A stretch of DNA of 64,000 bases from Spirochaeta lutea (GTDB taxonomy: Bacteria; Spirochaetota; Spirochaetia; DSM-27196; Salinispiraceae), in contig NZ_JNUP01000048.1 of assembly GCF_000758165.1 (NCBI RefSeq), positions 1 through 64,000 of the forward strand, given 5' to 3'. Below the pieces are notes generated by a model. The model searched no databases. It saw nothing but the letters and a program-made list of their open reading frames with translations, and was not told the DNA's origin. Every line of letters begins with the position of its first letter. The first letter of the stretch is position 1. Below are positions 19,840-54,774 of the stretch, in pieces. The position numbers were made by a program, and so were the translations under genes.

Positions 19840-19876
19840 TAAAAAAAACCGGTCCGGAGTGAACTTCCGGACCGGC
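19840..19876 (-). terminator. Terminator of the GH17/Ig-like lipoprotein transcript
   Basis: On the minus strand, a perfect 10-bp stem (ccggtccgga 19849-19858 with tccggaccgg 19866-19875) is followed by eight T residues. It lies about 45 bases after the stop of the GH17-like gene. A CATNNGAATCACC word overlaps its T-run side. Confidence 0.85.
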
Positions 19877-19919: not shown

Positions 19920-21674
19920 TCATTTTTCCCAACGGATGTTGTCCAGGCTGATGCTGTTGGTTGCGCCGGCGCTGTTGCCCGTGGTGGCGTAGCGGTCGGC
20001 GATGACGAAGGTAGCGAATACCTGCTCCATGTTGATGGTTGCCGAGGCGTCCTGTCCGTAGGCCGGGGCGGCGCTGGGTACGATGTCGCTGATGGGGATG
20101 GATACGGCGTGCCAGACGTTGTCGTTGGCGTAGCCGTAGCTGTTGGATGCGGGATCGATGGTCAGGTACACATCAACGCCCATCTGGTCGGAGGTGTTGC
20201 CCGTGAAGAATCCTACCTCGATCTTCCCGGGATAGTCGGTTTTCACGCTGAAGTTCAGGGTTCCCGCCGCTTCAAAATCGCTCAGGTCCACGGGGTCGGT
20301 AACACTCAGGGTCATGCCCCAGCCCCAGACCTTGGGTGTAGGGGTGATGATGGCGAAGGTGGCGCCTTCCGGGGGATTCGTTTCGCCGGTGGCCACCGAT
20401 GCGGTGGTGCCGTTCTCCCAGGCGTTCCAGGTGTTGCTTGAGGCTACCTCGCCATCGGCGGCTTCGGCGTCCCGGTGGAGGATGAAGGTGTCGGCGGTGA
20501 TTTTAGCTGCATCGGCGGGAGGGTTGTAGTAGACCGCGTCGGCATCGGTGTAGCCGCTGCCGGAGAGGACGTACTTTTCTTCCCGGCTGACATTCCAAAG
20601 ACCCCAGTTATCGTCGGCCTGCTTCCAGGGTTCGTCAAAGGCTTCGAAGTAGAACATTCCCTTGGGCCGGGTGAATCCGTCTCCCGGGGATGATCCTGCA
20701 GCGCCGTAGGCCCAGGCCATCATGTCGGTGAAGTACCGGGCATGGTTAACCGGGTGGGCGGTGTACTGGGCCGAACCTACGGTGGCGCTGGGGACGCTCT
20801 GCCATCCGGTTTCGCCGATGACTATGGGGATGTCAATGCCTGCGTCATCCAGGGCGCTGCGGACGGCGGTAAAGTTTGCCTTGGCGTAGGCCAGGGCGGC
20901 GTCCATCATGGCGTCTGCCCGCTCGGCTTCGGCGACGGTTTCCTGGCGCCATTGCCAGAGGTTGTAGCCTGCGTCCCAGTAGGCGTAGGTATGGATGGCG
21001 GCAAAGTCGACTTCCCGCCAAACCTGGGCGGTATCGTAGCCGCTGCCCATGGCGTAGGGCGCATAGTTGTCGTTCACCGTTACCGGCTGGGTAATTCTTC
21101 CCCGGACGTCCCGGATGTAGGCAACCATATCCTTGGGCGGTACGGCCACAAAGGACCAGTCTACCAGGACCTCGTTCCCTACGCTCACCGCCACAACAAT
21201 ATCCTTATTCTCATTGGCCAGGCGTACCGCCTCGTCTATCTGCGCCTGGTTTTGGGACCCGTAGGTGGCATCGGCTCCATAGAGGTAGGCGCCTAACATG
21301 ACCTTGAGGTCCAGGCTGTTGTCCTTGATGACCTTGATGGTCCTCTGGCCGTGGGTGGAGGTGTCGTAGAGGCGGATGAGTCCGAAGCCCTCGGAAACGA
21401 GGAGATTGAGGTCTTCCAGGATCTGGGCCTCGGAGGGGTAGATTTTTTCTCCCGGGCTCTGGCCGGTGCGGTATCCCGAGTAGGCGATGGCCTTCCGGGC
21501 CCAGATGGCGTCATCCAGGGGCCTGAGGGTGAAATCCGGATCTGGATTGGGTTGGGGATCGGGATCTTCGTCGACAAAGTTACAGCTTCCGAGGATGAGT
21601 AGTAGGCTAATCATCAGCACCCCCGCAATCAGGCCCGAGGCCCGTTTTTTTGTTGTTTTTTTTAATGGGTTCAT
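19920..21674 (-). CDS. GH17-like glycoside hydrolase lipoprotein
   Basis: 584 residues. A lysine-rich start and hydrophobic stretch end in lipobox ILGSC, followed by a short Pro/Asp/Asn linker (about residues 28-42), so it is probably surface-anchored. The barrel domain (about 50-365) has GH17-type features: RLYDTSTHGQ, VSVGNEVLVDW with the acid catalyst Glu, and VIGETGWQS with the nucleophile Glu. The last 190 residues form a beta-rich domain like carbohydrate-binding modules. GH17 enzymes act on beta-1,3-glucans; other beta-glucans are possible. The ATG at 21674 has an AGGAG ten bases upstream. It lies downstream of an Ig-like lipoprotein gene across two strong hairpins. Confidence 0.78.
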   Translation of the reverse strand: MNPLKKTTKKRASGLIAGVLMISLLLILGSCNFVDEDPDPQPNPDPDFTLRPLDDAIWARKAIAYSGYRTGQSPGEKIYPSEAQILEDLNLLVSEGFGLIRLYDTSTHGQRTIKVIKDNSLDLKVMLGAYLYGADATYGSQNQAQIDEAVRLANENKDIVVAVSVGNEVLVDWSFVAVPPKDMVAYIRDVRGRITQPVTVNDNYAPYAMGSGYDTAQVWREVDFAAIHTYAYWDAGYNLWQWRQETVAEAERADAMMDAALAYAKANFTAVRSALDDAGIDIPIVIGETGWQSVPSATVGSAQYTAHPVNHARYFTDMMAWAYGAAGSSPGDGFTRPKGMFYFEAFDEPWKQADDNWGLWNVSREEKYVLSGSGYTDADAVYYNPPADAAKITADTFILHRDAEAADGEVASSNTWNAWENGTTASVATGETNPPEGATFAIITPTPKVWGWGMTLSVTDPVDLSDFEAAGTLNFSVKTDYPGKIEVGFFTGNTSDQMGVDVYLTIDPASNSYGYANDNVWHAVSIPISDIVPSAAPAYGQDASATINMEQVFATFVIADRYATTGNSAGATNSISLDNIRWEK

Positions 21675-21692
21675 GGTTTTCTCCTGCAAGAA

Positions 21693-21762: not shown

Positions 21763-23562
21763 TTACTGTGCGACATCAAAATATACATCGGTGATGTATA
21801 TGGCCGTTTCCGTGAGACCTGCCTGGAAGCGAAGGATTCCCACCTCTGTATTGCTGCCCAGATCGCCGTATCCGGATAGGGGTACGGTTATTTCCGTCCA
21901 GCCGTTGCCGAGATCTACCCCGTAGTCCGCAATGGCGTAGGAGATTTCTTCGGTGGTGGCTCCGGGGAATTTAACCGCTACATCGGTCAGCTCGGTACTC
22001 TTGAGTTTGAACTTCAGGTTGTCATAGCCGACGGCCGCACCGGTGGAGTACTGGGTAAAGGCGAGGGCGAATCCCGGGGTTCCTGATCCCCAGAGGTTAG
22101 AACTGGTGGTTACCTCAATGACGGGGTTGTAGGTGGGATCGTCTGCATAACTTGCATTGAAGGCAGATCCGGAGTCCCAGTGCGCCAGGGTATTGGTAAC
22201 GTCTACCGTTTCAGTGGTTCCGTAGAGATAGGCATCCTCGGTCGGAGCGGCCACGGTCAGGGTTGCCGGTACATCGGTATCCGCGCTCACCTGAGTAACC
22301 GAGCTGAAGCCCACATAGCCGGACATGGACACGCTTACCGGGTATTGCCGGGGCTCAACCGTGAAGGTTGCTACACCTGAGGCGTCAGTGGTGGCCTCCA
22401 TGTTGGTGTTCAGCTTAACCGTTGCGCCCTCAATGGGGTCGGTGCCGTCATCTACGGTAACAGACAGGCTGTAGGTAGTCAGGGCGGATTCCTGGGGTTT
22501 TAGGCTGATGTTGTCCAGATATACCGTAGCAGCCTGACTATTTGAGGATACATTTCCTAACCCGATATTCAGTTTCAGGGTCGGGGTTGCGCCTAAACCA
22601 GAGAGATTTACCGTGGCTTCATAGGTGGTCATTTCCGTGCCGAGCAGGAAGTCGAGGTTTGTGGGACTGGCTGCAACCTCGGTCGGCGCAATTTCAATCC
22701 TCATATCCCGGGCTACCGATGCACGGGCATCGAAGGACAGGGTGTAGTCACCAGCCTCAGGTACTGAGATACCTTCCTGCCAGAACTGAACACCCCACCA
22801 GGCATTCCCTGTAGCAGGTATGATAATTTCCGCCTCGCCGTCAACCACCGACGCGGTGGTATTCCCGGCCTCTGACCAGAGTTCCCAGGAATCGGTTAAG
22901 CCTTGGGTGAAGCTTCCGTTGGGGATGATCCCCGTATCAACGGCGGCCACAACCGTTACCGCTGTCGTAGCGGTCTTACCATCGTAGGTGGCGGTGATGG
23001 TGGCGGTTCCTTCGGCAACACCGGTAACAACCCCGGCTGCAACGGTAGCGGTGCCCTCGGCGCTGCTGGACCAGGTGACATCGGCAGCGGCTAGGGCTTC
23101 CGTCGTTTCGTCATCATAGCTGGCCGTTACGGCAATGGCTGCGCTGTCCTGGCCTACCTCGATGGTGATGGTAGCGGGATCGGCTGCGATGGACTCCAGG
23201 GTGGCTTGGGTGTCTGCCGCAGTCACGGTTACCGCCACGGTGGCAGTTTTTTCCTGGTAGGTGGCGGTGATGGTTGCGGAGCCCGGGGCTACTGCGGTTA
23301 CCACACCCTTGCTAACCGTGGCTATGGCGGAAGCGCTGGTGGACCAGGTTACGTCAGTGGCGGCAACATCCGCAGTGGATGTGTCAGCAAAGGTGGCTTC
23401 CACGGCCAGGGCAGGGCTGGTATCGCCTGCTGTCAGTGACAGGGTGGCCGGGGTGACGGCGATGGACTCCAGGGCGGCTGGTAGAATATTGTCGGAACAG
23501 CCGCTGAGTATGAGTACCAGCACCAAGATCATTCCATACAGAGCATTTCTGTAAGCCTTCAT
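21763..23562 (-). CDS. Ig-like (BIG2) and carbohydrate-binding lipoprotein
   Basis: 599 residues with signal and lipobox LILSGC. Two Ig-like BIG2 repeats follow (about 32-115 and 116-200), each with the ATVSKGVVTAVAPGSATITA type motif. Then comes a CBM4/9-like jelly-roll domain (about 205-355, starting IIPNGSFTQGLTDSWELW), a carboxypeptidase-regulatory-like fold (about 365-435) and a C-terminal beta domain resembling the tail of the GH17-like neighbour. No catalytic residues are visible, so it is probably a surface glycan-binding protein. It is followed by the GH17-like gene and lies downstream of the glycosidase-barrel gene. Confidence 0.75.
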   Translation of the reverse strand: MKAYRNALYGMILVLVLILSGCSDNILPAALESIAVTPATLSLTAGDTSPALAVEATFADTSTADVAATDVTWSTSASAIATVSKGVVTAVAPGSATITATYQEKTATVAVTVTAADTQATLESIAADPATITIEVGQDSAAIAVTASYDDETTEALAAADVTWSSSAEGTATVAAGVVTGVAEGTATITATYDGKTATTAVTVVAAVDTGIIPNGSFTQGLTDSWELWSEAGNTTASVVDGEAEIIIPATGNAWWGVQFWQEGISVPEAGDYTLSFDARASVARDMRIEIAPTEVAASPTNLDFLLGTEMTTYEATVNLSGLGATPTLKLNIGLGNVSSNSQAATVYLDNISLKPQESALTTYSLSVTVDDGTDPIEGATVKLNTNMEATTDASGVATFTVEPRQYPVSVSMSGYVGFSSVTQVSADTDVPATLTVAAPTEDAYLYGTTETVDVTNTLAHWDSGSAFNASYADDPTYNPVIEVTTSSNLWGSGTPGFALAFTQYSTGAAVGYDNLKFKLKSTELTDVAVKFPGATTEEISYAIADYGVDLGNGWTEITVPLSGYGDLGSNTEVGILRFQAGLTETAIYITDVYFDVAQ

Positions 23563-23735: not shown

Positions 23736-26700
23736 TTAGTAGGTCAAATCCACGTAGAGGGTGAACTTGTTCAGACTGCCCTCTCCGGGTTCATCATCCG
23801 CCGAGTAGGTGCCGAAGCTCCGTCCTGAAGCTGCAAGGCCTATCCGGGTCTCGGTGGTCATCATGCTGGGGGTATCGAAGCCGTAGGCGATTTCACCGTG
23901 CCACTGGAGGGGATAGGTAATGTTGAACTGACGATGCCATACCTCGGGGCCCCAGGCGCTGAAATCCGCCCCGCCGCCGATGAAGAGGTTGCGGTACCGC
24001 ATATCCAGGCCGAGGCCGATGAAGTTGACCAGACGTTCGCTTTCCCCGGTACTCTGCTGGGTGCCGATGCGACCGTCGAAGTTGATCTTCAGGCCGGGTA
24101 AGGGGTTGCTGTATACCTTTCCAGCCAGGGTCCAGAGACCCGAGGCCTCAGGTAATCCCGAGGGGAAGGCAAACCAGGCGCCGTCGGCGGCCTTGAATAC
24201 CCCGGCATCGGTGGGACCGGCGTAAAAGGTGTAGAGGAAGGAAAGGGAGGCGGCGATTTTCGCGTTTTCCCGGTCCTGGACGTTCCAGTCGTGGAAGTAG
24301 GTGGCGCCTTCGGGGTCGAAGGTGGCGACTACCTCGGCTTCGATGGTTTCGCGGTTCCAGTACACCGCGAAGGGATCGGTGAGATTCGACCGGAGGGTGT
24401 AGCTGCCCACGGCGGTCATGGGGTCCACCAGGGGTTTACGCCACCTGAAAATGCCCTCGGCGGTAAAATCACCGTAGATGAATCGGGCGCCGGCGTTGAT
24501 TTCCCGGCGGTTTCCCGCCCCGGAATCAGCGACCTGGAATCCGGACCGGGGGATCATCGGATTGCCTGCGGCGACCAGCCCGGCTTGAAGGTACTGGGCC
24601 CAGATCCTGGTATATCGGATGATGTCCGTACCCAGGCGGACCTTGAAGGCCAGGGTGTCCAGATAATCGATGGTATCTTCGGTTACGGCTATATCCGAAC
24701 CGTTCACACCACCCCCGGGCTCGTCGGCCGGTCCGGATTGGTAGAAGGTTTCTCCCACGGATTCGGAACCGGAAAACAGCACCCCGGCTTCAGCAAAAAG
24801 GTAGGGACCGATGCCTAGACTTCCCGAGAGGCTTGCCCGGCGACCGGGGATCTCCCCGGGGTATGCGTTTTCCCGGGCGGCGAACTCTTCAAGATACATC
24901 AGCCCGAAGGAACCGGTGACCCCGTCCCCGGTAAACTCCCGGTAGTAATTTGCTGCTACCAGGGGCAGGGCTCCCCAGTACACCTCGGGTCCGATAGCCA
25001 GGCGCAGTCCCTGGAGGGCTTGCTTGCCGTCGAGCTGCAGGCCCAGGGGTGCATCCGAACCGTCCTTATCCATACCCAGGCGATCCCAGGCCTCGGGCAT
25101 GAGATTGAAGGCATCACCGTGGAGCATCCAGTCCGGTCGTCCCGACCGGTAGTACCCCGTCAGATCGAAGAGATCGTTAGAATAGGTGAATTCTCCTGCA
25201 TAGAGGTTTATGTGGCCGTCGGTTTCGCCGGTCGTATCGTCGTATCCGAGGTACTTCGGCGCCTCACCCCAGGCAGGGAGGATGGGATTCGCCCAGACCT
25301 TGAGGGTGGTGAATCCAGTGAGGTTATCCAGGGGTTGCAGCCCCAGGGTCAGGGTTAACTCCTGGCCGTTGGTGAAGGCCGCATCGGTCATCCAATCTGC
25401 GGCGATGGTCTGATCATCCGCAGCGATCCGTCCTTCAACCCGGGCGGTGAAGCCCTGAAGACTGATGGGATTCCATGCCTCTTCTTCCTTAATGCCATTT
25501 GCCTCGCCCCGGGCGAGCACCGAACTGCTGGCTGCCGCGGCAAAGTGGTCGGCTACATCGGTGCTGCTGGAATCGTAGAGGGGCAGTTTCCAGAGTTCCT
25601 GGAGCAGGTAGTAGGCGGCCCGGGGGATCCGCCGGTGGATGCCGTCGTCCTTGCGCGGGCTCTGAGCGACTATGCCGAACCATTCCTCCTGCATATTGTT
25701 AACCCCGGGAACGGCATCATGGGCATAGGCGCCGTTGCTCCAGGTACCCTCGGTGTCATGAACATCCAGGTTCTCGGTCTGGAGGTGTTTCCACCACTCG
25801 TCCATCCACTCGAAGACGAATCCTCCGATTACATTCTGGCTCTTACCCTTGCCGTAAGACTGCTGATAGATTTCCCGCCACTGTTCGAAGATGTACCGGG
25901 CCTGATTGAACTGGTCTTCTTGCTGGGTAGCAGCGTTCCATGCCTCGGCACCGAGCTCGGTGTAGACGATGGGAACCCCCAGGGATTCGACGCTCTGGTA
26001 GAACAGGTCCTGGGCGGCCCCTCCCCGGTAGGTATTGACCCCGAGTACATCCAGGCTGGGTACCAGCTCCTCTATTAAATTCAGGTACTGGATATCCCCG
26101 TTGACGATGCCGTAGGGATGGGCGGTGCTGATCTGTTTTGCTTCGGCAATGGCTTCCTCAAACAGGCTGTACAGGTAACCGGCCCGGACCTCGGAGCGCT
26201 GGCCTACGGGAAGATCCTGTATTACACCGGAATCCCATTCCAGGCCGTAGTTGTTTTCATTCCCGAAGAGGAACATGAGAACCCCCGGAACGTCCTTGTA
26301 AGTTTCTACTACCTCCAGGGTGTCCCGCTTTATAACCTCCCGGCTGTATTTATCCGAGTAGTCTGTCAGGGGGTACCAGATGCCCCGGGCGCTCACCCCG
26401 TAACGGCCGAAAAGGGGGTTTACGATGGTGTAGATTCCGTATTGCCGGTAGAAATAGGTTATCCACTTGGGAGGGACATCGGAAAACACCCGGATGGCGT
26501 TTACTCCCATGTCCTTCATGAGCCGGGCGTCCCGGTCAATCATTTTTTTGATGATGTCCTCGGGCTGATCCCAGAGGTTGTAGGTGTAGTTTTCCCCGAT
26601 GGGAATGTAGGACCATACGACCCCCTTGACCTCGAAGGGTTCGCCTTTCACGAACAGCCGTAGACCGCCCTCATCCCGGCGGATCTCGCTTACTACTCCG

Positions 26701-26792
26701 GCGGAAGAGCCGGCAGCGGGGCTGTCAGCCTGGGCCCAGAGACCGGAACCGAGCAGGAATATACTGATTAGAATTACTATGAGCCGTTTCAT
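23736..26792 (-). CDS. Glycosidase (clan GH-A-like) fused to an outer-membrane beta-barrel
   Basis: 1018 residues with signal peptide MKRLIVILISIFLLGSGLWA. Residues 40-400 resemble a GH2/GH5-type (alpha/beta)8 hydrolase: KGVVWSY, GVNAIRVFSD, FLFGNENNYGLEW (Glu about 177, acid/base) and IVYTELGAEAW (Glu about 279, nucleophile), about 100 residues apart as in clan GH-A. From about residue 540 to the end the sequence consists of alternating amphipathic strands with aromatic girdles (INLYAGEFTYSNDLFDLTGY) and ends in TLYVDLTY, an outer-membrane barrel signature. The start has AGGAGG and overlaps the stop of the upstream CBM9-like gene (ATGA). This architecture would fix the enzyme in the outer membrane. 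Substrate unknown. Confidence 0.72.
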   Translation of the reverse strand: MKRLIVILISIFLLGSGLWAQADSPAAGSSAGVVSEIRRDEGGLRLFVKGEPFEVKGVVWSYIPIGENYTYNLWDQPEDIIKKMIDRDARLMKDMGVNAIRVFSDVPPKWITYFYRQYGIYTIVNPLFGRYGVSARGIWYPLTDYSDKYSREVIKRDTLEVVETYKDVPGVLMFLFGNENNYGLEWDSGVIQDLPVGQRSEVRAGYLYSLFEEAIAEAKQISTAHPYGIVNGDIQYLNLIEELVPSLDVLGVNTYRGGAAQDLFYQSVESLGVPIVYTELGAEAWNAATQQEDQFNQARYIFEQWREIYQQSYGKGKSQNVIGGFVFEWMDEWWKHLQTENLDVHDTEGTWSNGAYAHDAVPGVNNMQEEWFGIVAQSPRKDDGIHRRIPRAAYYLLQELWKLPLYDSSSTDVADHFAAAASSSVLARGEANGIKEEEAWNPISLQGFTARVEGRIAADDQTIAADWMTDAAFTNGQELTLTLGLQPLDNLTGFTTLKVWANPILPAWGEAPKYLGYDDTTGETDGHINLYAGEFTYSNDLFDLTGYYRSGRPDWMLHGDAFNLMPEAWDRLGMDKDGSDAPLGLQLDGKQALQGLRLAIGPEVYWGALPLVAANYYREFTGDGVTGSFGLMYLEEFAARENAYPGEIPGRRASLSGSLGIGPYLFAEAGVLFSGSESVGETFYQSGPADEPGGGVNGSDIAVTEDTIDYLDTLAFKVRLGTDIIRYTRIWAQYLQAGLVAAGNPMIPRSGFQVADSGAGNRREINAGARFIYGDFTAEGIFRWRKPLVDPMTAVGSYTLRSNLTDPFAVYWNRETIEAEVVATFDPEGATYFHDWNVQDRENAKIAASLSFLYTFYAGPTDAGVFKAADGAWFAFPSGLPEASGLWTLAGKVYSNPLPGLKINFDGRIGTQQSTGESERLVNFIGLGLDMRYRNLFIGGGADFSAWGPEVWHRQFNITYPLQWHGEIAYGFDTPSMMTTETRIGLAASGRSFGTYSADDEPGEGSLNKFTLYVDLTY

Positions 26793-27613
26793 TGGGCAGC
26801 CTCCTGGGGAAGTACAATCTCGGCATCGCCCCACACCGATGCATCAAAATAGGGGTCGTCCTTTTCGCTCATCCAGTGGATGAGCCGATCGCGTTCACTG
26901 GAATCTCCGTCGTTAATCTGGAACTCAACCCGGAGCTTTTGGCCCAGCCTGAGGTCCGAGATGCCTAGCAACGCCAGAGGAATGGCAGCCTCAATGCGGT
27001 ATCCGTTCTCCCGGAACCGGACCCTGGCATCGGTTTCTTTGGTGAAGTCCACATCGTTGATTGAGAGGGAGTAGACCGCGGGATCGGTCTTGCTGGCCGG
27101 TACAACCCGGATATGGTTGTCTGTGGGGGTAAAATCCCGGTGGGGTGTGGTATCGGTACCGATGAAGAATTCCACCGAGTCGTTTCGCCATGCTCCGGCG
27201 GGGGGCAGCTTATTTTCGTTGGGTACATCGTCGGTAATGTCCGCATAGAGAAATAGGTTTGCGCCGTCGGTAGCCATGGTAAAGTCTCCCGAGGCATCGG
27301 CGGGGATGAATCCGCTGCCGTACACCACCACGTAGGGCTGGGCCGAAACAAGTCCACGCCACTCGGTGAACACGCCGTCTATGGCCACGCCGTCCTCAAG
27401 CCAAAAAACCGGAGCGACCTGCCCTACCGGGGGCTCACGGTCTTCCATCTGGCCGCTGACATCGGGCATCCACGGCGGCTCAATGGCCACCTTCGCAGTG
27501 GTTGTCCAGCATCCCATGAGCACCAGGGGTAGGACGGCCAGGAGGATTAGGCCTTGGAGAAGTCTGATCCGGCCGTTCCGGGTCCCCGGGGGAATATTTT
27601 TGATTGGTATCAT
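26789..27613 (-). CDS. CBM9-like carbohydrate-binding lipoprotein
   Basis: 274 residues. The signal ends in lipobox LVLMGC (about residue 35). The remaining 200 residues follow the family 9 carbohydrate-binding/DOMON-like pattern: DGVFTEWRGL, LFLYADITDDVP, WRNDSVEFFIGTD, YRIEAAIPL and LRVEFQINDGD. It probably binds glycan at the cell surface and is the first gene of the transcript that continues into the glycosidase-barrel gene by a four-base overlap. GGGAG precedes its ATG, and the promoter lies about 115 bases upstream with a candidate ROK operator on the -35 box. Confidence 0.78.
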   Translation of the reverse strand: MIPIKNIPPGTRNGRIRLLQGLILLAVLPLVLMGCWTTTAKVAIEPPWMPDVSGQMEDREPPVGQVAPVFWLEDGVAIDGVFTEWRGLVSAQPYVVVYGSGFIPADASGDFTMATDGANLFLYADITDDVPNENKLPPAGAWRNDSVEFFIGTDTTPHRDFTPTDNHIRVVPASKTDPAVYSLSINDVDFTKETDARVRFRENGYRIEAAIPLALLGISDLRLGQKLRVEFQINDGDSSERDRLIHWMSEKDDPYFDASVWGDAEIVLPQEAAQ

Positions 27614-27737
27614 AGTGATCTCCCATGTATCTGAACCCGGCGGGAACTGTTTCGCCTCCCCCGGGCTTCTGATCCCGGAAATACGGTGTTCCGGGGGAGG
27701 ACGAATGATTTTAGTTGGTTTCCGCCCTCAACTAACA

Positions 27738-27773
27738 TCATAAATCCGTATTGTTTATGTCGTCAACAAACAA
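27738..27773 (-). promoter_or_regulatory. Promoter of the CBM9/glycosidase transcript with candidate operator
   Basis: Minus strand: TTGACG (27761-27766), a 17-base spacer and TTATGA (27738-27743). The inverted repeat TTGTTT-n11-AAACAA (27751-27773) covers the -35 box, a plausible site for the divergently placed ROK-type repressor. A second palindrome, ATGAAAGTTCTTTCAT, lies at 27800-27815. The binding protein is inferred from proximity. Confidence 0.5.
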
Positions 27774-27933
27774 TTTTCTTTTTTTCAGGGAAACCGGAAA
27801 TGAAAGTTCTTTCATCTGTACATCAGCTCCCGGCAGCCCAGGGATTAGTCCTCCCAGGGGCTGATACTGGTTCGTAGGTAGAAGAACAGCCGAAGGATTA
27901 ATAATGCCCCCGGGGGGGATGGGCCAAAAAGCC

Positions 27934-27994
27934 GGGACTGGGTGTGGTTCGGGACTGGGTGTGGTTCGGGACTGGGTGTGGTTCGGGACTGGGG
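27934..27994. repeat. 17-bp tandem repeat, 3.5 copies
   Basis: gggactgggtgtggttc starts at 27934, 27951 and 27968 without change, followed by a partial unit at 27985. It lies in the 540-base gap between the ROK regulator and the CBM9-like gene. The rest of that gap holds the promoter above and GC-rich sequence with no gene. Confidence 0.9.
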
Positions 27995-28153: not shown

Positions 28154-29314
28154 TTATTCCAGGACGGTTTTTAACAGGTCGAATCCACAGGCGTAGGCTT
28201 GCTGGGTGTTGCTGATGGTGGGGACGCTGAAGAGTCGTTCGATGAACATGCAAGCGGCGCCGAAGGCTACGGTTTCCCGGCCGAGGTCGGTGAAGCGGAC
28301 TTCGCAGGCTGCGGGGGTATCGTAGGACCAGTTTTCTTGGATTTTGTCCTGAAGGATTTTGGAGAGGTTTTCCCGGTGGGGGGAGAGGTCGCCCAGGATG
28401 ATGACCTGGCTGAGGTTAAAGGTGTTCACCAGGAGGGACAGGTTGATGGCCAGCTCCTCGAAGGTTTTGACCAGTACCGCCTCGTCGGAGACCATCTTTG
28501 CGGCTTCTTCGTCGGAGATGGAGAACTGGGTGGAATGGAAGGTCTTGCAGAAGACACTCTGAAATTCCCCGGCGGAGAAGTTTTTTCCATAGTGGACGTG
28601 TTTATTGAGTACGATTCCCAAGCCTACCCCGATGCCCTGGAGGGGCGCGCCGCTTATCCGGGTGCGCCGCAACTCCACCAGAACAGACAGGAAATTCTCC
28701 GCAGCCTCCAGCTTATCCTTGAACAGCTCGCCCCAGCAGCAGGAGTTGGCGTCGTTCTCCACCAGAACCGGGACGTCAAAATACCGGGTAATGATGGGTT
28801 TAAGGTCCAAGGTTTCGTCTATATTAAGGGGATTCGAACGCAGGATGATTCCCTGGAAGGGATCGATAATTCCCGGCAGGGTGACTACAACTCCCATGGG
28901 TTTCATGGGCAGCTCCGCGCACCGAGCGGTCAGGCGCTGCATGGCCTGCTCGATAACCTGCTGAAGGCTGGTATTCTCCTCGGTAAGGGTTTCCGAGAGG
29001 GTAAAGAGGATGGATCCGTCGATGGTAACCCCCACGGCGAACCAGCGGTCGGTTTGTACCTCCATGCCGATGACAAAGCCAATCTTGTTGTTCAGCTGAA
29101 GAAAATCCGGCCGGCGCCCGCCCCGGGGGGTGGAGACTCCCTTATCGGCGGGTTCAACGATATTATAATCGTCCAGGGTGTACATGATTTTAGAGACCGT
29201 GGAGCGGTCCAGGCCGATCTGCCGGGATATCTCGATCCGGCTGATGGGCTGCTGGTGGTAGAGGCAGTTGAGAACCCGGGAAATGTTGAAGCTGGAAACT
29301 TTATCGATGGTCAT
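28154..29314 (-). CDS. ROK-family transcriptional regulator
   Basis: 386 residues: an N-terminal winged helix-turn-helix (QPISRIEISRQIGLDRSTVS, about residues 23-42) and a ROK fold. The usual sugar-kinase phosphate motif (DxGxT) is replaced by IGMEVQTDRW, and the CXCGXXGC zinc motif is absent, so it is a regulator without kinase activity, like NagC/XylR-type proteins. The ATG at 29314 is preferred over upstream codons because TTGACA (29351-29356), 17 bases and AATAAT (29328-29333) put the transcription start just before it. It probably controls the glycan locus downstream in response to a sugar. Confidence 0.8.
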   Translation of the reverse strand: MTIDKVSSFNISRVLNCLYHQQPISRIEISRQIGLDRSTVSKIMYTLDDYNIVEPADKGVSTPRGGRRPDFLQLNNKIGFVIGMEVQTDRWFAVGVTIDGSILFTLSETLTEENTSLQQVIEQAMQRLTARCAELPMKPMGVVVTLPGIIDPFQGIILRSNPLNIDETLDLKPIITRYFDVPVLVENDANSCCWGELFKDKLEAAENFLSVLVELRRTRISGAPLQGIGVGLGIVLNKHVHYGKNFSAGEFQSVFCKTFHSTQFSISDEEAAKMVSDEAVLVKTFEELAINLSLLVNTFNLSQVIILGDLSPHRENLSKILQDKIQENWSYDTPAACEVRFTDLGRETVAFGAACMFIERLFSVPTISNTQQAYACGFDLLKTVLE

Positions 29315-29603
29315 AGTTCTTGCATGCATTATTGGTGGCATCGCCAGTGTTGTCAATGAAGAAAGCCCCTTCCCGCCCAGTTATGTCCCCGGCGGATCAA
29401 TAAAGCATCGGGCGCACGGGGTTGTCCGCTATGCCTGGTAGTAGGAGCCCCGTCTAGAACCCAGCCCAGGGATGGCGTCGCCGGCATGAACGGTTCCACC
29501 CGTTAGGGCACGAAAAAGTGTGAAAAAAAGTGATCCGTTTAAGGTTGGTTTAAGGTTCTCCAGCGGATAATCACCCTAAGAAACCAACCCAAAGGAGATT
29601 AGG

Positions 29604-32663: not shown

Positions 32664-35288
32664 CTATTCGTATAGTTCGTACGCACCCACCGGGGTGGCG
32701 ACCGCACCGGTTCTCAGCCGGAGGAACTCCCCCAGATCGAAGGTGCCGTCGCTGTTCCGGCGGATGAAGCCCTGCTGACCGGCGGCCGCCCGTTGGGAGC
32801 GGTCTTCGGTCCAGAGAGGGACCTGGGTATCCAGGACGTCGGAGACCGTCAGGGTGGTGCCGTTGATGTTCTGGGTGGCGGTGCCCCGGGTGGAGCCCGT
32901 CCCCTCGCCGTACCAGGCGAAGCCGTCGACGGGGTACCGCAGATACACCTTGTCCTCCCTGCGGTTGGTGCCGTCCTCCTCGGTAGGATCGCTGTAGAGG
33001 GAGAGCAGCCCCTCTATGGTGGCGGCCAATCCCCGGACGTTGTTTGAACCGTCGTAGATGGTAAAATTCCGGCTGTCAGCTCCTACCTTGATGCTGAACT
33101 CCCCGCCGTTGTCGAAGGAGGTGACATGGTCCAGTTGGATGGCGGGATTCGAATTGCTGGTGAATCCGTGGGCCCCGTTCTGGAAGGCCAGGGAATGGGA
33201 TACCTGGTGGGGGACTGCCAGGCCCTCGCCTCCGAGCTTGAAACCGTTGCGCCCTGCCTGGGTTTTGGTTCCGTCCATGAGGATGCCGTTGCGGTAGGCA
33301 ATGCAGTACTGGATGACAACAGGCTGAATGGCTCCAGTTTCTTTCTTGGTAAACAGGTCCCAGCCGTCATCACCGTTGTTGTGGGCGATGCACCATTCAA
33401 AGCGGTTTCCCTCCCCCACGGTGAGCTTGGCGGCGAACCCGTCGGCATCGGTCTGGGCCGCATCTTTGTTGTTATAGGATTCGCTGTAGCGGATGGTATT
33501 GTTCCGGGGCCACATGCTCTTGGGTTCCGCACTGCGGCCGCTGATTTGAAGGCCGGTATCGCCGTGGTTGTAGGTTTGGACCCACTCCACCAGGTTGTTG
33601 CTGCCCATGACAACGAATCCTTTAACCTTGTCCGGGGTGTTGCGGATATGAATACCCGAGATTTCCCAGTAGTTGCCCCCAAGAACAGCCCCGGTAGCCT
33701 GAATATTCTTCTGAAAGTCGACGAACACCCTGTCCCGGGTCTCAGCCTCAATTCGTTTGGGGCTGCCGTACCGGCCGTTGTTGTACCGGGGTATTTCCAG
33801 GGACCGCAGGTTGTAGGTTCCCTCGGTCATGATGATGGTCTGGCCGGGCAGCACAAAACTAATGGCGGTTTGGATATCCAGAGGGCTTGCCTGGGTACCG
33901 TGGTTGTACCGGCTCCCCCCGGGAGAAACGTAGATGGGGGTTGAGACGGAGCCATAACTTCGGCGTTCCACCGTTAGGGTTTTGCTGATGGGCTGGACAT
34001 CCGACAGGGCGTAATCCTGCTCAACCTCGGGGTAGAACATGACCTGAAAGGTGGTGTCTCCGGGTTCAAGCTGGTATACCGGCACCTCAAAGAGCATGAA
34101 GGGCTCCACGGCCGCGCTGGTGGGTTCGGTCATCCAGGTTCCCGGGGCGTACTCGGCGCCCTCGACCATGATTCCGTTCTGGCGCAGGCTGATGTAGCCC
34201 CGTACATTGGACCGGGCATAGAGGGTGTACTGACCGTCCGAATTGGTCCGGGGGGAGAGGACGGAGAATTCCGGGGTAAAGATTTCCGGTTCGGGCTGCT
34301 CCCGGGGTGCATCCTGGGATGCCAGGGATTCCGAATAGGAGATGTTGGAAACCAGGATGTCCGCCGATCGGGCCGCAAAGAGGCCGACATAGAAGTAATC
34401 CTCCTGAATGACCGAGAGCACATCCGGTTCGGGGATGAAGTATTCCTGGAAGCTCCCCTTACCCGGGGGCGGATGGATGGTCGAGATGAAACCGTTGTTG
34501 TTCTTCTCCAGAGTGAGGCGGTACACCAGGCCCTTGCTGGGGAAGTCGGGCCGGTCTTCCAGGGTCGGATAGGGGGAATAATCGGTGAGCTCCTCGGGCC
34601 ACCACTGAATCCGGGACTGGGAGGCGTCGCTGAGGGTCTGGGGATCGGTAATAACATCCCTACCCCCGGTGACGCCGCTTCGAACCGCCGCCCGGACTCC
34701 CCGCTTTATCCCCCCGAGCATGACCATGTTCCCCGAGCCCCCGGTGGATCCGGCCCGGTACTCCGCCGCGCCCTGCAGGTCCGCCATGGTCGCCCCGGGG
34801 TACTGGGGCACGTAATCCCGGGCCATGAGGCCGAAGCCCTCCTGGCCGTTGGAGGTGGTTTCCCCGGAGGTCCCTACCCCGCCGAAATGGAGGATTTCCA
34901 CATCCGCGGAAAGCTTGAAGTTCTTGTCCGTGCCGACCTCCCGGAAGAGAAAGGTGATTCCATCCTCGCTGCCGGCAATTTTTCCGGCATTGTTGTTGTC
35001 GTTCCGGGCGTAGAGCCGGACGGTCTCATCGTCGTTTACGGTGACGAAGTTCTCGGTTATGTCCCCGGTGCTTGTACCGAAGACCAGCCGGTGGGCATCC
35101 TCGAGGAAATCAATCTCCTGGCTGGAGGAGGGATTGTACTCACTGTATATTTCGCAGCCCGGGGCTAGCAGGATGCTTCCCAACAGGAGTAGAACCGCGA
35201 GAACCCGCCGGCTTTCAGCCCGCCGGGATTTGAGCACCCCGGCATGAGAATCCCCTGGACTAGTCGTTAAAACCTGCCTGCGCTTCAT
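32664..35288 (-). CDS. PL9-family pectate lyase lipoprotein
   Basis: 874 residues. The N-terminus has a lipobox (LLAPGC, about 40-45), then a 400-residue beta-sandwich region and a right-handed beta-helix (about 430-770). The helix begins YVSPGGSRYNHGTQASPLDI and contains ADGFAAKLTVGEGNRFEWC (about 612-630) then NNGDDGWDLF, the core of PL9 lyases; the Lys in AAKLT corresponds to the catalytic lysine of Pel9A-type enzymes, and the aspartates bind calcium. It cleaves polygalacturonate by beta-elimination, giving unsaturated oligomers for GH105, KduI and KduD. GGAGG precedes the ATG at 35288. Confidence 0.88.
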   Translation of the reverse strand: MKRRQVLTTSPGDSHAGVLKSRRAESRRVLAVLLLLGSILLAPGCEIYSEYNPSSSQEIDFLEDAHRLVFGTSTGDITENFVTVNDDETVRLYARNDNNNAGKIAGSEDGITFLFREVGTDKNFKLSADVEILHFGGVGTSGETTSNGQEGFGLMARDYVPQYPGATMADLQGAAEYRAGSTGGSGNMVMLGGIKRGVRAAVRSGVTGGRDVITDPQTLSDASQSRIQWWPEELTDYSPYPTLEDRPDFPSKGLVYRLTLEKNNNGFISTIHPPPGKGSFQEYFIPEPDVLSVIQEDYFYVGLFAARSADILVSNISYSESLASQDAPREQPEPEIFTPEFSVLSPRTNSDGQYTLYARSNVRGYISLRQNGIMVEGAEYAPGTWMTEPTSAAVEPFMLFEVPVYQLEPGDTTFQVMFYPEVEQDYALSDVQPISKTLTVERRSYGSVSTPIYVSPGGSRYNHGTQASPLDIQTAISFVLPGQTIIMTEGTYNLRSLEIPRYNNGRYGSPKRIEAETRDRVFVDFQKNIQATGAVLGGNYWEISGIHIRNTPDKVKGFVVMGSNNLVEWVQTYNHGDTGLQISGRSAEPKSMWPRNNTIRYSESYNNKDAAQTDADGFAAKLTVGEGNRFEWCIAHNNGDDGWDLFTKKETGAIQPVVIQYCIAYRNGILMDGTKTQAGRNGFKLGGEGLAVPHQVSHSLAFQNGAHGFTSNSNPAIQLDHVTSFDNGGEFSIKVGADSRNFTIYDGSNNVRGLAATIEGLLSLYSDPTEEDGTNRREDKVYLRYPVDGFAWYGEGTGSTRGTATQNINGTTLTVSDVLDTQVPLWTEDRSQRAAAGQQGFIRRNSDGTFDLGEFLRLRTGAVATPVGAYELYE

Positions 35289-35306
35289 AGCTACCTCCAT
35301 GGCGGA

Positions 35307-37325: not shown

Positions 37326-38780
37326 TTAGGAGTTTAACTCTGCCAGAATAGTGGAGATCTGAAGGGCATTTGCCCGGCGCTGGTACTCAGCCAGGCCCTG
37401 ATCGATGGTGATTTCACCGGTTACGATCTGAGCGAAGAGTTCCTGTTTAGCGGTGTTCAGGTCGCCGATGTTCTTGGTGTACACGTCGCCGCCCTGAACC
37501 AGCCGGAGGGATACCGAATCTTCGTTATGAATCTCGATGGAGAGGCGTTCCTTGGGCTGTTGGGGAATCATAGGCTCAAAGTCATTCAGGGGCAGGTAGG
37601 GGTCGATGTAGGTCTTGTTGAAGGGCCGCTCGGGGTTGGAGGGCTGGGGAAGCATGTAGGGATTACCGGCATCGTCCAAGTCCCAGTGAAGCCCCTGAAT
37701 TCCGTAGGTCCAGAGAACCTGTCCATCCCCCTTGTCCCACATGTGACCAATGATGTTATCAAACACAGCCTTGGGGTTCTGGGCAGCGGTGGAGATCGCC
37801 AAGAGCGGTCCGACCCGGTTGATGTAGTGGGCCTCGTCGATGGCATTGACAGCAGAGATGTCGGCTGCGGGGTTGATGTTCTTGGCACTCTGATCCAAGC
37901 GGGTTGCCCAGGTTCCGGTCCAATAGTCGAAGGCGCCGGCCTGACCTTCCATGAGTTTGCTCCGGGCACGGGAGGTGTTGTTTGTGAAGAATTCCCGGTC
38001 GATAACCCCCGCTGCATAGAGGTCTATCCAGCGTCTGAGGGCTTGCCGCATGGCAGGCTGAGAGAATCCGTCTACCCACTGACCGTTCACGTACTGGAAG
38101 CCGAAATAGGCATCCTGCATGATGGGTCGGTTATAGTAGTCGAACTCCGAGGCCGGTACCTGGAAGGGCAGGGTTAAACCGATGGTATTATCCTGGCCGT
38201 CGCCGTCGGGATCATCAAAGGTAAAGGCCCGCAGCATGGCCACATACTCGTTCCAGGTCTCAGGTACATCCATTCCCAGGTTGTCCAGCCAATCCTGGCG
38301 TACGTAGGTTACACAACCGCCGCCCTTGTAGGTGGGGAAGCCGTAGATCTTCCCGTCCTTGGCCCGGTAAACCTCGTAGTAGTCCTTGGTAACACTGGCC
38401 ATGTTGGGATTCGCTGCGATGAACTCATCCAGGGGCACCAGCAGGTTAGAATCCACATAGGCGGTGTACTGGGTATCCCAGAGCTCCATGATGTCCGGAA
38501 GATCCCCTGCCATGACGGCAGCGCCCAGGACCTCGGCGTACTGGTTGTGAGGGGGCTTGATGACCTCCAGGGTAATGCCGGTCTGGTCCTTATAGGCTGC
38601 CAGGAACTGGGCGAGGCCGTCGTCTTCAATGAGAATCCGGTCCAGGTAACTGGTGATCTTGGAAATGGCAGGACCTGCCTCTCCGGTTGAACCGCTTTCG
38701 CCCTCCCCGCCTGCAAATACGCCTGCGGAAACCATCAGAAGCGCTGCTGCGAGCAGCACCGTTGAAATCTTGCGTACCAT
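37326..38780 (-). CDS. ABC transporter sugar-binding protein
   Basis: 484 residues with signal peptide (TVLLAAALLMVSAGVFA) and a family 1 extracellular solute-binding fold: WDTQYTAYVDSNLLVPLDEF, RQDWLDNLGMDVPETWNEYV, TFDDPDGDGQDNTIG. The Ca-site-like DPDGDGQDN segment is typical of the LplA/YtcQ-type proteins that bind (rhamno)galacturonan oligosaccharides. It follows the two permease genes. Its closest relative here is the binding protein at 43425-44999, with shared blocks throughout. Captures oligosaccharides in the periplasm for the permease pair. Confidence 0.9.
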   Translation of the reverse strand: MVRKISTVLLAAALLMVSAGVFAGGEGESGSTGEAGPAISKITSYLDRILIEDDGLAQFLAAYKDQTGITLEVIKPPHNQYAEVLGAAVMAGDLPDIMELWDTQYTAYVDSNLLVPLDEFIAANPNMASVTKDYYEVYRAKDGKIYGFPTYKGGGCVTYVRQDWLDNLGMDVPETWNEYVAMLRAFTFDDPDGDGQDNTIGLTLPFQVPASEFDYYNRPIMQDAYFGFQYVNGQWVDGFSQPAMRQALRRWIDLYAAGVIDREFFTNNTSRARSKLMEGQAGAFDYWTGTWATRLDQSAKNINPAADISAVNAIDEAHYINRVGPLLAISTAAQNPKAVFDNIIGHMWDKGDGQVLWTYGIQGLHWDLDDAGNPYMLPQPSNPERPFNKTYIDPYLPLNDFEPMIPQQPKERLSIEIHNEDSVSLRLVQGGDVYTKNIGDLNTAKQELFAQIVTGEITIDQGLAEYQRRANALQISTILAELNS

Positions 38781-38843
38781 ATCTACCTCCTTACGGTACT
38801 CGGTATTATTAAGCCCGTGGGCTTTACCACATGGTTAATGCGC

Positions 38844-39713
38844 CTATCCTTTTACGGCGCCGAGATTTATACCCTTCACAAAATGCCGCTGCACCAGGGG
38901 GTATACGATCATTACAGGAATTATGGAAACAATGACCGAAGCGTTTTTCAGGCTCTGGGTTGCTATGGCGAAGCCCTCGAATCCCTGGCCCTCGGCCTCA
39001 ATGACAAGACTCCGCAGGAACACCTGGAAGTTATGCAGTTTGGGAAAGCGCTGGATGTACAGCACGTATTCAAACCACTGGTTCCAGTAATAGACCATGT
39101 AGAAGAGTCCGATAGCCGCCAGCCCCGGTTTGGAAAGGGGAAGCACGATCTGCCAGAACACCCGGAAGGGTGAACAGCCGTCAATCTTCGCGGCGTCTAG
39201 GACGCTGCTGGGAATGGTCTTAAAGAAGTTCATGAGTAGAAACAGGTAGTAGGCATCTACCAGGTGCACCAGGAGCACCGCCGCCTGGGTATTCATGAGC
39301 CCCAGGTTGCGTACCACCAGGAAGACGGGAATCATTCCCGCCCGGAATACCATGGTCAGAAGGGCCATCCCCAGAAAGAGGGGCTTACCCGGCAGGTTCG
39401 GCTGGGCCAGGGCGTAGGCAAACAGGGCGGTAACCACCATGGACAGAACGGTTCCCATGGCTGTCATGTAGAGACTAACCATGAAGGGGTCCCTGAGGGT
39501 CGGACGGCTGATGATGTTCCGGTAGGCATCCACGGTAAACTGGCCGGGAACCAGCTTAAAGGTGGTTTCCGAGGCGGTACCGTCGAAGGAGTCCACCACC
39601 ACCTTGGCAATGGGGATGGCGATGATCAGCACCAAAATCAACATGAGGGCGGTGTTAAAAACAGTAAAGGGAGACACGCCCCTAAGTCCCTTTTTCACAT
39701 CCAGTCGTACCAT
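38844..39713 (-). CDS. Carbohydrate ABC transporter permease (YtcP/LplC-like)
   Basis: 289 residues, six predicted transmembrane helices. The cytoplasmic EAA-type loop is DAAKIDGCSPFRVFWQIVLP, about residues 180-200, which contacts the ATPase. It pairs with the permease encoded three bases upstream. No ATP-binding subunit is encoded in the operon, as in MsmX-dependent systems where one ATPase serves several sugar importers. The context of PL9, GH105 and GH28 points to pectin-derived oligosaccharides. Confidence 0.9.
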   Translation of the reverse strand: MVRLDVKKGLRGVSPFTVFNTALMLILVLIIAIPIAKVVVDSFDGTASETTFKLVPGQFTVDAYRNIISRPTLRDPFMVSLYMTAMGTVLSMVVTALFAYALAQPNLPGKPLFLGMALLTMVFRAGMIPVFLVVRNLGLMNTQAAVLLVHLVDAYYLFLLMNFFKTIPSSVLDAAKIDGCSPFRVFWQIVLPLSKPGLAAIGLFYMVYYWNQWFEYVLYIQRFPKLHNFQVFLRSLVIEAEGQGFEGFAIATQSLKNASVIVSIIPVMIVYPLVQRHFVKGINLGAVKG

Positions 39714-39716
39714 GGC

Positions 39717-40667
39717 TTATACCTCTTTCAGTTTTTTCGTTAACCGGTTGGCGGATACCACCAGTACAAAGGCGATTACCGATCGGAACAGCCCGATGGC
39801 TGTGGCGTAGGCGAAGCGGAACTCCCGGATACCCGTACGGTATACGTAGGTTTGCAGGACATCGCTGACGTCGTAGACCAGGGAGTTGTAGAGAACCATG
39901 ACGGACTCGAAGAGATTGAAGATCTTCGCCAGGTTCATAATCAGGACGATGGCGATGGTGGGGAACAGGTGGGGCAGGGTCACGTAGACCATCTGCTGGA
40001 GGCGGCTGGCTCCGTCTATCTTGGCGGCCTCATAGAGCTGAGGGTCGATACCGGCCAGAGAGGCTAAAAATATGACCGTTCCCCAACCGACCTCCCGCCA
40101 GGCCAGGATGGCCAGATACACCGGACGCCACCAGGATTTATCACCCAGGAAGTACACCGGGTCGCCCCCCAAGGACTTGATGATGGCATTCACCAATCCG
40201 CCCTGGGATAAGAGCAGGGTAAACAGGGATGCCACGACCACCCAGGATAGGAAGTGGGGCAGGTAGATGGCGGTCTGCACGAACTTCTTAAAACCCTGAT
40301 GCATGATCTCATTCAATAACAGGGATATGACAATGGTCAGGGTCATCTGAATGACGATGTTCATGGAACTCAGGATCAGGGTGTTCCAGAAGGCCCGGGA
40401 GAAGCCCGGACTGTCCAGGGCTACCCGGAAATGTTCCAGGCCGACGAATTCACCCACGCCCCCGAGCCCGTATTCAAAGAATGACAGGCGGAGTTCCCAC
40501 ATGGGAACGTAGTGAAACAAAATAAAATAGATGGTACCGGGAAGCAGAAACAGGTAAAACATGCGGTGACCCGCTATGTCCTGTCGGAGCTTCTGCCATC
40601 GTGCAGTCTTTACCCGAACCGCGACCTCGGGTCTTACCTGCATGGTAATCTCTTGGTTTCTGGCCAT
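39717..40667 (-). CDS. Carbohydrate ABC transporter permease (LplB-like)
   Basis: 316 residues with a 30-residue cytoplasmic N-terminus and six predicted helices. Its EAA loop, EAAKIDGASRLQQMVYVTLP, is at about residues 215-234. First gene of the permease-permease-binding-protein operon; AGGAGG precedes the ATG. It is divergent from the GH105 gene, and two inverted ATTTGTACAAT sites lie in the shared 303-base upstream region. Partner of the YtcP-like permease. Confidence 0.9.
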   Translation of the reverse strand: MARNQEITMQVRPEVAVRVKTARWQKLRQDIAGHRMFYLFLLPGTIYFILFHYVPMWELRLSFFEYGLGGVGEFVGLEHFRVALDSPGFSRAFWNTLILSSMNIVIQMTLTIVISLLLNEIMHQGFKKFVQTAIYLPHFLSWVVVASLFTLLLSQGGLVNAIIKSLGGDPVYFLGDKSWWRPVYLAILAWREVGWGTVIFLASLAGIDPQLYEAAKIDGASRLQQMVYVTLPHLFPTIAIVLIMNLAKIFNLFESVMVLYNSLVYDVSDVLQTYVYRTGIREFRFAYATAIGLFRSVIAFVLVVSANRLTKKLKEV

Positions 40668-40970: not shown

Positions 40971-42086
40971 ATGGAACAGACGATTCAATCCCTGAGATCA
41001 GCCCAGGCACTGGCCGCTTCGGTCATGAAGCGCTACAGCCCCGAGAAGGCGCTATGGCATTACGAACACGGGGTCCTTATGCAGAGCCTTTTGGCTCTGG
41101 GACTGGAGGTGGAGGATCAGTCCTATGAGGATTTTGTGGTCCTTCGGATGCAGACCCTGGTAACCGAGGGGGGGGAGATTCCGACCTACCGCTTGGAGGA
41201 TTATAATCTGGACCAGATAAATCCCGGAAAGGTTCTCCTGGAGCTCTATGCCCGGCGGGGGGAGGAGCGGTACAAGAAGGCCGCCCAGACCCTGCGGTAC
41301 CAGCTGCAATACCATCCCCGGACCAGCGAGGGGGGATTCTGGCATAAAAAAATCTACCCCCACCAGATATGGCTGGACGGCCAGTACATGCAGGGGCCCT
41401 TTTATGCCCGGTATGCCAGGGATTTTAACGAGCCCGCGGTGTTTGACGATGTTACCAGCCAGCTCCTGTTGACCGAGGCGAGGACCCGGAATCCCTCCAA
41501 CGGGCTGCTGTACCATGCCTGGGATGAGAGCCGGAAACAACTCTGGGCTAACCTGCGCACGGGCTGCAGTCCCCATTTCTGGGGCAGGGCCATGGGCTGG
41601 TTTGCCATGGCCCTGGTGGATGTCCTGGATATGCTCCCCGCCGGCCATTCCAAGTGGGAGGAGATTATCCAGGCGGTCCGCCGGTTGGCCGGGGCTGTGC
41701 TGGATGTCCAGGACCGGGAGGTGGGACTCTGGTACCAGGTTCTTGATCAGGGGGAGCGGGAGAAGAACTATATTGAGACCTCGGCCTCTTCGATGTTCAC
41801 CTATTTCCTGGCCAAGGCTGCCCGTCTTGGATATCTCGAGGAAGATGTATCTGTCAGAGCCAGGAGGGGTGCCCAAAGGGCCCTCCAGGCTCTGATTGAC
41901 GACTACCTGATTGCCGACCGGGAGGGAGACCTGCATCTTCACGGAATTTGTTCCGTGGCCGGCTTGGGCGGCACCCCGTACCGTGACGGCAGCTATGATT
42001 ATTACGTGAAGGAGCCTGTAGCGGCGGATGATTTTAAGGGTGTGGGTCCCTTTATTATGGCGTGTATTGAAGTAAACAGGCTCTAA
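40971..42086 (+). CDS. GH105 unsaturated rhamnogalacturonyl/galacturonyl hydrolase
   Basis: 371 residues without signal peptide, so cytoplasmic. The sequence follows the YteR/YesR (GH105/GH88) (alpha/alpha)6 fold: IWLDGQYMQGPFYARYARDF with the catalytic Asp, GCSPHFWGRAMGWFAMALVD, YIETSASSMFTYFLAKAA and KEPVAADDFKGVGPFIMA. It removes the unsaturated uronic acid from the non-reducing end of imported oligomers made by pectate or rhamnogalacturonan lyases. GGAG precedes the ATG. First of three tightly packed genes with MATE and a binding protein. Confidence 0.9.
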   Translation: MEQTIQSLRSAQALAASVMKRYSPEKALWHYEHGVLMQSLLALGLEVEDQSYEDFVVLRMQTLVTEGGEIPTYRLEDYNLDQINPGKVLLELYARRGEERYKKAAQTLRYQLQYHPRTSEGGFWHKKIYPHQIWLDGQYMQGPFYARYARDFNEPAVFDDVTSQLLLTEARTRNPSNGLLYHAWDESRKQLWANLRTGCSPHFWGRAMGWFAMALVDVLDMLPAGHSKWEEIIQAVRRLAGAVLDVQDREVGLWYQVLDQGEREKNYIETSASSMFTYFLAKAARLGYLEEDVSVRARRGAQRALQALIDDYLIADREGDLHLHGICSVAGLGGTPYRDGSYDYYVKEPVAADDFKGVGPFIMACIEVNRL

Positions 42087-54700: not shown

Positions 54701-54774
54701 CGGGAACACAAACCCGGAACGAGCTGAACGGCTACCGGGAGATCGCCATCTTCAAGGACGGAGTTACCCTATGA
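51754..54774 (+). CDS. uxaBA: Tagaturonate reductase-altronate dehydratase fusion (UxaB-UxaA)
   Basis: 1006 residues joining two consecutive enzymes of galacturonate breakdown. Residues 1-490 are UxaB, a mannitol-dehydrogenase-family NADH enzyme (ETILQFGEGNFLRAFVDW, then KVRILNGVHT with its catalytic Lys/Asn-His), reducing tagaturonate to altronate. Residues 510-585 are the SAF domain (HPGDTVVVAVDPVPRG, MGRASTAISPGDHVHTHN) and 600-1006 the catalytic part of UxaA (PTVGCVNRPAELMAQRA, THPHPYGCSQLGDDH, FGLGCENNYIEEFK), which dehydrates altronate to 2-keto-3-deoxygluconate. Both halves are full length (normally about 480 and 495). GGAGG precedes the ATG. The next gene, uxaC, overlaps by four bases. 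Confidence 0.92.
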   Translation: MKSDLPAIQETLKDRPQVKETILQFGEGNFLRAFVDWMIDILNQEGHYRGSVVMVQPIAQGMGEAINRQKGLYTTYLRGLRKGKALEESRLITAVSRCINPYADHQAYIDAGNNPDLRFIISNTTEAGISFHPGDRLEDQPQQSYPGKLTALLYRRFTRFSGDPDKGLVIIPCELIDRNGDRLRDYVRQYAEQWNLGADFLTWLDSHCDFLNSLVDRIVTGYPGEEAPALWETLGYRDDLLVTGELFHLWVIEGSRRYAMELPFQRAGLDVIWTEDMTPYRTRKVRILNGVHTMTALTSFLYGLDTVGQWGSTPDISRFVDHAIFKEIIPACPGVPGELEDFAREVIQRFANPYIVHQVLSISLNSVSKFTTRVLPSLLDYHRSTGSLPQAIPFSLAGLLAFYQVDSDAPGSWQGMRGDQPYPVKDDPAILEAFADLYAPWTPQPDATETLVRLALSRSQWWGTDLSAVPGLVTAVSGHLHRILTQGMKTALGRLLSKIDSQSREIAPRIRRIHPGDTVVVAVDPVPRGTVIEVPEGSIEAGADIPQGHKIAIRAMAPGDPVVKYGFPMGRASTAISPGDHVHTHNVKTGLEGTLEYRYRPGAADPAPGSTPAPHTQRSFQGYVREDGSVGIRNEIWIIPTVGCVNRPAELMAQRAIRALGSKIGPNIDAIVTHPHPYGCSQLGDDHLMTQKILADLVHHPNAGGVLVFGLGCENNYIEEFKKVLGPHNEKRVKFLSAQDTSDEIDAGMQLLEELVDQANQDVRQSVPLEKLIVGLKCGGSDGFSGLSANPLLGQLSDALIDQGGTTILTEVPEMFGAETILMDRAESREVFEDVVGLINGFKEYYLRYNQVVYENPSPGNKEGGITTLEEKSLGCVQKGGRSPVRGVLKYGQRITTHGLNLLEGPGNDIVSVTALAAAGAHLVLFTTGRGTPLGGPVPTVKVSSNTALAEKKPGWIDFNAGPILDGRELTEEFLDFVVDIASGTQTRNELNGYREIAIFKDGVTL

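Follow-up and report, generated by a model that had tools for sequence, protein, structure and literature searches.

The fusion gene and its operon

We analyzed a 64,000-nucleotide stretch of Spirochaeta lutea DNA (contig NZ_JNUP01000048.1, positions 1 to 64,000; hereafter the window), and we describe the domain architecture, conservation, catalytic residues, and gene neighborhood of one of its genes from sequence and prediction. This gene, on the minus strand at 23736..26792 (stop codon included), encodes a 1018-aa protein comprising a signal peptide, a GH158-like TIM barrel, a linker, and a predicted outer-membrane β-barrel. The start at 26792 gives MKRLIVILISIFLLGSGLWA, which by inspection is a typical signal peptide (residues 1-20; 26733..26792, minus strand); because the whole 1018-aa protein is without cysteine, the signal peptide is not of the lipoprotein type. 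On the same strand, the GH158-like clan GH-A catalytic domain covers residues 35-405 (25578..26690) and the predicted barrel covers residues 443-1018 (23739..25466), with a helical linker of low to moderate model confidence between them (residues 406-442; 25467..25577). The open reading frame is real, and the protein is single-copy in its own genome. An artefact of frame or assembly is ruled out by the ~30 loci that carry the fusion; since many other spirochaetes have it, the fusion is not an accident of assembly.

Four genes follow one another on the minus strand: a CBM9 lipoprotein (26789..27613; lipobox LMGC), the fusion, a putative lipoprotein in which Pfam identifies Big_2 repeats and a CBM4_9 domain (21763..23562), and a GH17-like protein that scores just above the Pfam threshold and matches CBM30 weakly (19920..21689). 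The ATG of the fusion gene overlaps the TGA of the CBM9 gene (ATGA). A promoter-like site, TTGACG-18-TATGAT, lies upstream of the CBM9 gene (27737..27766, minus strand) and a terminator-like hairpin of 11 bp followed by T7 lies after the GH17-like gene (19848..19876, minus strand), with the frequency of either kind of site in the region not above chance. Beyond the promoter-like site, a gene for a NagC-like ROK-family regulator (28154..29356, minus strand) has a homologue at the orthologous operon of a related genome (L104), which has the same four operon genes and the ROK regulator; control of the fusion operon by this regulator is possible. Between the regulator gene and the promoter-like site, the 17-base unit CCCAGTCCCGAACCACA is repeated ~3.5 times in tandem (27932-27992).

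No ABC importer is present in the fusion operon of the window, and the nearest one belongs to a pectin cluster 10 kb away. This pectin/galacturonate-type cluster (30449-56195), with AraC-type regulators and uronate enzymes, includes a PelX-like lyase (32664-35300), a substrate-binding protein (SBP) with two ABC permeases (37326-40667), and GH88 (40971-42086). It also holds a 1006-aa open reading frame (51754-54774, plus strand) whose single chain combines a mannitol-dehydrogenase-type (UxaB-like) reductase with a UxaA-like altronate/galactarate dehydratase, and the gene for glucuronate isomerase UxaC (54771-56195) comes next, the ends overlapping. Just past the right end of the window, the same contig has GH16 and GH3 genes (G000:C45:66062-66646 and 77824-78795).

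Among related loci, a CBM9 gene is directly upstream of the fusion in 14 of 15, as well as in L104 and the window, and its product has a lipobox at most of these loci. Twelve of the 15 loci carry GH16 genes. By raw counts, the 98 neighbors across these loci include 15 GH16 proteins (the commonest family) and ~20 ABC permeases and binding proteins; no glycosyltransferase appears in the 25 commonest neighbor families. Together, the CBM9, GH16, and ABC sugar importer neighbors and the GH17-like gene of the window suggest β-1,3-glucan catabolism and import.

Enzyme half

The first-pass annotation had pointed to two catalytic-type glutamates in the N-terminal half, and both are where it placed them: FGNENN (E179; codon 26256-26258, minus strand) and YTELG (E279; codon 25956-25958, minus strand) are separated by 100 residues, and neither Glu varies among 18 diverse relatives. 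In the predicted structure, E179 follows β4 (171-176) and E279 ends β7 (275-280), the pattern of clan GH-A; E179 is the predicted acid/base and E279 the predicted nucleophile. R101, N178, E179, Y255, E279, and W329, which we take to be expected clan GH-A active-site positions, do not vary among the aligned relatives. N178, E179, and E279 correspond to N136, E137, and E220 of the endo-laminarinase BuGH158, mutation of which abolishes activity (PMC7157763).

Pfam gave a sub-threshold GH72 match as its only result for this half, and GH72 and GH2_C matches in relatives. Searching the PDB with a profile of 18 relatives identified GH158(Pro) at 8.6e-9; with a profile of 18 catalytic domains that included distant Omnitrophota rows, the best two matches were both GH158 (9oro, 5.3e-19; 6pal, 2.6e-18), followed by GH2 at 2.6e-13. 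Foldseek analysis of the predicted enzyme structure likewise returned GH158(Pro) as the best match (9e-12). VIA-align superposed GH158(Pro) with Z 25.3 and an rmsd of 2.8 over 277 residues, in a tie with GH5, GH2, and GH157 (within Z 2). The TIM domain has ~20-22% identity to solved GH158 enzymes, with partial coverage in the profile matches, and its model shows structural features expected of that family: a clan GH-A TIM barrel, a predicted NE acid/base after β4, and a predicted nucleophile Glu at β7. On these profiles and models, the enzyme half appears closest to GH158 endo-β-1,3-glucanases, in the sense of closeness and not of proven membership, and it is likely a β-1,3-glucan-cutting enzyme, predicted to be a retaining endo-glucanase.

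Barrel half

The full-length model has a mean pLDDT of ~72 and a pTM of 0.52, and confidence in it is moderate; all structure models were built on shallow alignments. Because full-length structural alignment shows mostly the TIM domain, residues 420-1018 were folded separately with 19 sequences. This model (pLDDT 71.6, pTM 0.73) contains 26 strands of at least seven residues, or ~24-26 antiparallel strands by an approximate count. The barrel starts near residue 443 in the model, not at residue 540 as originally proposed. Outer-membrane barrels account for 50 of the 50 Foldseek matches listed for this half. In VIA-align, the matches were MOMP (Z 15.0), OccK2 (14.8), PapC (14.7), and AlgE (14.5), and mitochondrial VDAC ranked further down; PapC aligned across the whole barrel-half model, and ushers aligned over positions 16-599 of that model with an rmsd of 4.5-5.5. 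A C-terminus of soluble β-sandwiches, the outcome that would have spoken against the first-pass annotation, is not supported, as every fold match listed for this half on its own is a membrane barrel.

The C-terminal strands had also been described as amphipathic, and they are: compared with shuffled strands, their Stouffer z is 4.8, whereas N-terminal strands give -0.8. Predicted structure, turns, moments, and fold matches show the properties of outer-membrane barrels, namely an even number of antiparallel amphipathic strands with short periplasmic turns; by inspection, a Sec signal peptide and a hydrophobic C-terminal β-signal are present as well. The aromatic last residue noted earlier is correct for this protein (Y), but across relatives the ending is conserved as hydrophobic, not aromatic: among 26 distinct full-length C-termini, counted from whole open reading frames, the last residue is L in 18, F in 3, Y in 2, W in 2, and K in 1 (L/F/Y/W in 25 of 26).

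The barrel half matched no Pfam family, and a search of the PDB gave no relative by sequence. DUF5916, which represents CBM9-linked barrels, gave no Pfam match to 19 barrel members at up to E 0.5; a distant relation is conceivable. TonB-dependent transporters of the SusC kind combine a 22-strand barrel with a TonB box and an N-terminal plug domain. The fold here resembles that of TonB receptors; however, no Pfam plug-domain match was found, and the N-terminus is the glycosidase. These results support the C-terminal half as a predicted outer-membrane β-barrel of a family without a Pfam entry. Structure prediction of the two halves gave a clan GH-A TIM barrel and an outer-membrane barrel, and the central proposal of the first-pass annotation, a glycosidase with its own outer-membrane barrel in one chain, is supported by profile and fold matches for the enzyme half and by fold matches for the barrel half.

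Distribution and origin

The same fusion, sought in other spirochaetes as had been suggested, is found in many Spirochaetota, including Treponema bryantii. The architecture is rare in a relative sense, with 17 carriers among the 393 genomes sampled from the phylum. In a species-level collection, all 15 full-length fusion loci were from spirochaetes, T. bryantii among them. We found no precedent for a glycosidase-barrel fusion among the titles and abstracts that searches of open-licence papers listed.

A tree built from 72 catalytic domains groups the fused rows in a single clade supported at 100/97; of its 33 members, 30 are fused and 3 are not. L046 and L048, two of those three, appear as free enzymes but are truncated by contig ends and do not count as evidence for unfused genes. 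A label test on this tree gave 3-4 changes, with some long branches meeting. The simplest reading of the tree is that the fusion probably had a single origin with little loss.

In more distant genomes, the two halves are separate genes, either adjacent or one gene apart. The order is enzyme then barrel in L073; enzyme, one gene, and barrel in L098 and L099; and barrel, one small gene, and enzyme in L061. By hhalign, the separately encoded barrels are homologues of the fused one (98.9% and 97.7%). The intervening gene, at 2704-3720 in L098 and 871-1887 in L099, encodes a protein of 339 aa that matches FadL/TodX weakly and has an aromatic C-terminus. Omnitrophota loci (e.g., L051:1598-4003) encode ~800-aa proteins in which the same catalytic domain follows a largely unassigned N-terminal half of 400 residues; these genes adjoin ABC sugar permeases, and a second, short copy is sometimes nearby.

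Orientation and proposed function

The barrel model has seven turns of 2-3 residues, all after even-numbered strands. Since short turns follow even strands and the strands are even in number, both ends of the barrel, and hence the enzyme, are probably in the periplasm. Two standalone barrel relatives fit periplasmic barrel ends: L061 has a coiled-coil-like N-terminus, and L073 (10660-13308) has a C-terminal extension that is OmpA-like by eye. Turn parity fixes only the barrel ends, and the enzyme domain itself could cross by way of the pore; with both ends facing the periplasm, the enzyme would most simply be periplasmic, at the mouth of the pore.

From these features we infer a substrate, a pore activity, a side for the enzyme, and a coupling of cutting to uptake. 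The reading that we favor, by a modest degree, is that the fusion is a β-1,3-glucan hydrolase-porin whose enzyme, on the periplasmic side, cuts glucan as it emerges from the barrel. The C-terminal half would span the outer membrane, forming a wide barrel of ~24-26 strands, with the GH158-like retaining endo-glucanase at its periplasmic mouth. The CBM9 and CBM4_9 lipoproteins would hold glucan, which would enter via the barrel and be cut while leaving it, and the oligosaccharides would pass to other β-glucanases and an ABC importer. The earlier suggestion that hydrolysis is coupled to uptake is plausible on this gene content. Weighing against the hydrolase-porin reading are the moderate model confidence and approximate strand number, the low identity of the TIM domain to solved GH158, the lack of a plug domain that would gate such a wide pore, and the absence of an ABC importer from the operon in the window. 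More speculatively, import through a very wide channel formed by this one chain could be TonB-independent, with hydrolysis at the periplasmic mouth drawing or ratcheting the polymer in and the CBM9 lipoprotein as a counterpart of SusD; we regard this as conceivable, if doubtful.

In surface display, the linker helices (410-438) could instead thread the pore in the manner of type V autotransporters, placing the glucanase outside and leaving the barrel for display rather than uptake; the ~30-residue helical linker is long enough to span the membrane. Classical autotransporter barrels have 12 strands, whereas ~24-26 are predicted here; in addition, transporters, porins, and ushers make up the listed fold matches, and barrel relatives that stand alone lack an enzyme passenger. 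We consider surface display unlikely on balance, although the Bacteroides endo-glucanases homologous to the enzyme half are believed to work on the cell surface (PMC7157763). If transport ran the other way, the fusion would trim a β-glucan made by the cell and export it, much as PgaB/PgaA and AlgL/AlgE handle other polymers; AlgE is among the best fold matches. Exopolysaccharide secretion typically pairs a hydrolase with a barrel; nevertheless, the commonest neighbor families lack a glycosyltransferase yet include GH16, ABC sugar permeases, and binding proteins, and a ROK regulator adjoins the operon, which makes export very improbable.

The chemistry could also differ, with the enzyme belonging to clan GH-A outside GH158 (a GH72-like transglycosylase, or GH2-, GH5-, or GH157-like) and acting on another β-glycan. 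The Pfam GH72 and GH2_C matches in relatives and the GH5, GH2, and GH157 fold matches within Z 2 of GH158 are consistent with this option; however, the two solved GH158 enzymes lead the profile matches, and the GH16 and GH17 neighbors indicate β-1,3-glucan, so we judge it quite unlikely.

How large glycans pass through the outer membrane is poorly understood in diderms without recognized SusC/SusD. If the hydrolase-porin reading holds, one molecule may let some spirochaetes both cut and take up glucans. The conserved fusion, which is present in rumen treponemes, offers a single gene for testing the coupling of hydrolysis to outer-membrane passage. The barrel family, not in Pfam, exists in both fused and split forms.

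Comparison with known systems

Among outer-membrane proteins, the AlgE, OprD/Occ, LamB, chitoporin, TonB-receptor, and usher barrels share the antiparallel barrel fold; in contrast to them, the fusion is larger than porins and has an N-terminal enzyme, and no sequence relation to them was found in Pfam or the PDB. Type V autotransporters also combine an N-terminal enzyme and a C-terminal barrel in one chain; membership in this group was rejected, as the fusion has ~24-26 predicted strands rather than ~12 and no autotransporter Pfam match. In PgaA/PgaB and AlgL/AlgE, a hydrolase likewise works with an outer-membrane barrel, but as separate chains and for export, whereas the fusion locus looks catabolic.

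The GH158 enzymes (BuGH158, PDB 6pal; GH158(Pro), PDB 9oro/9p26) resemble the enzyme half in their clan GH-A TIM barrel, NE after β4, and Glu at β7, and in the β-glucan context of their loci; BuGH158 differs in having an Ig-like domain where the fusion has a membrane barrel. No SusC/SusD was seen at the fusion loci. Bacteroides SusC/SusD-type β(1,3)-glucan loci similarly encode endo-glucanases, glycan-binding lipoproteins, and outer-membrane transport together (PMC7157763); in the spirochaetes, however, the predicted barrel and glucanase are one chain, with ABC importers nearby.
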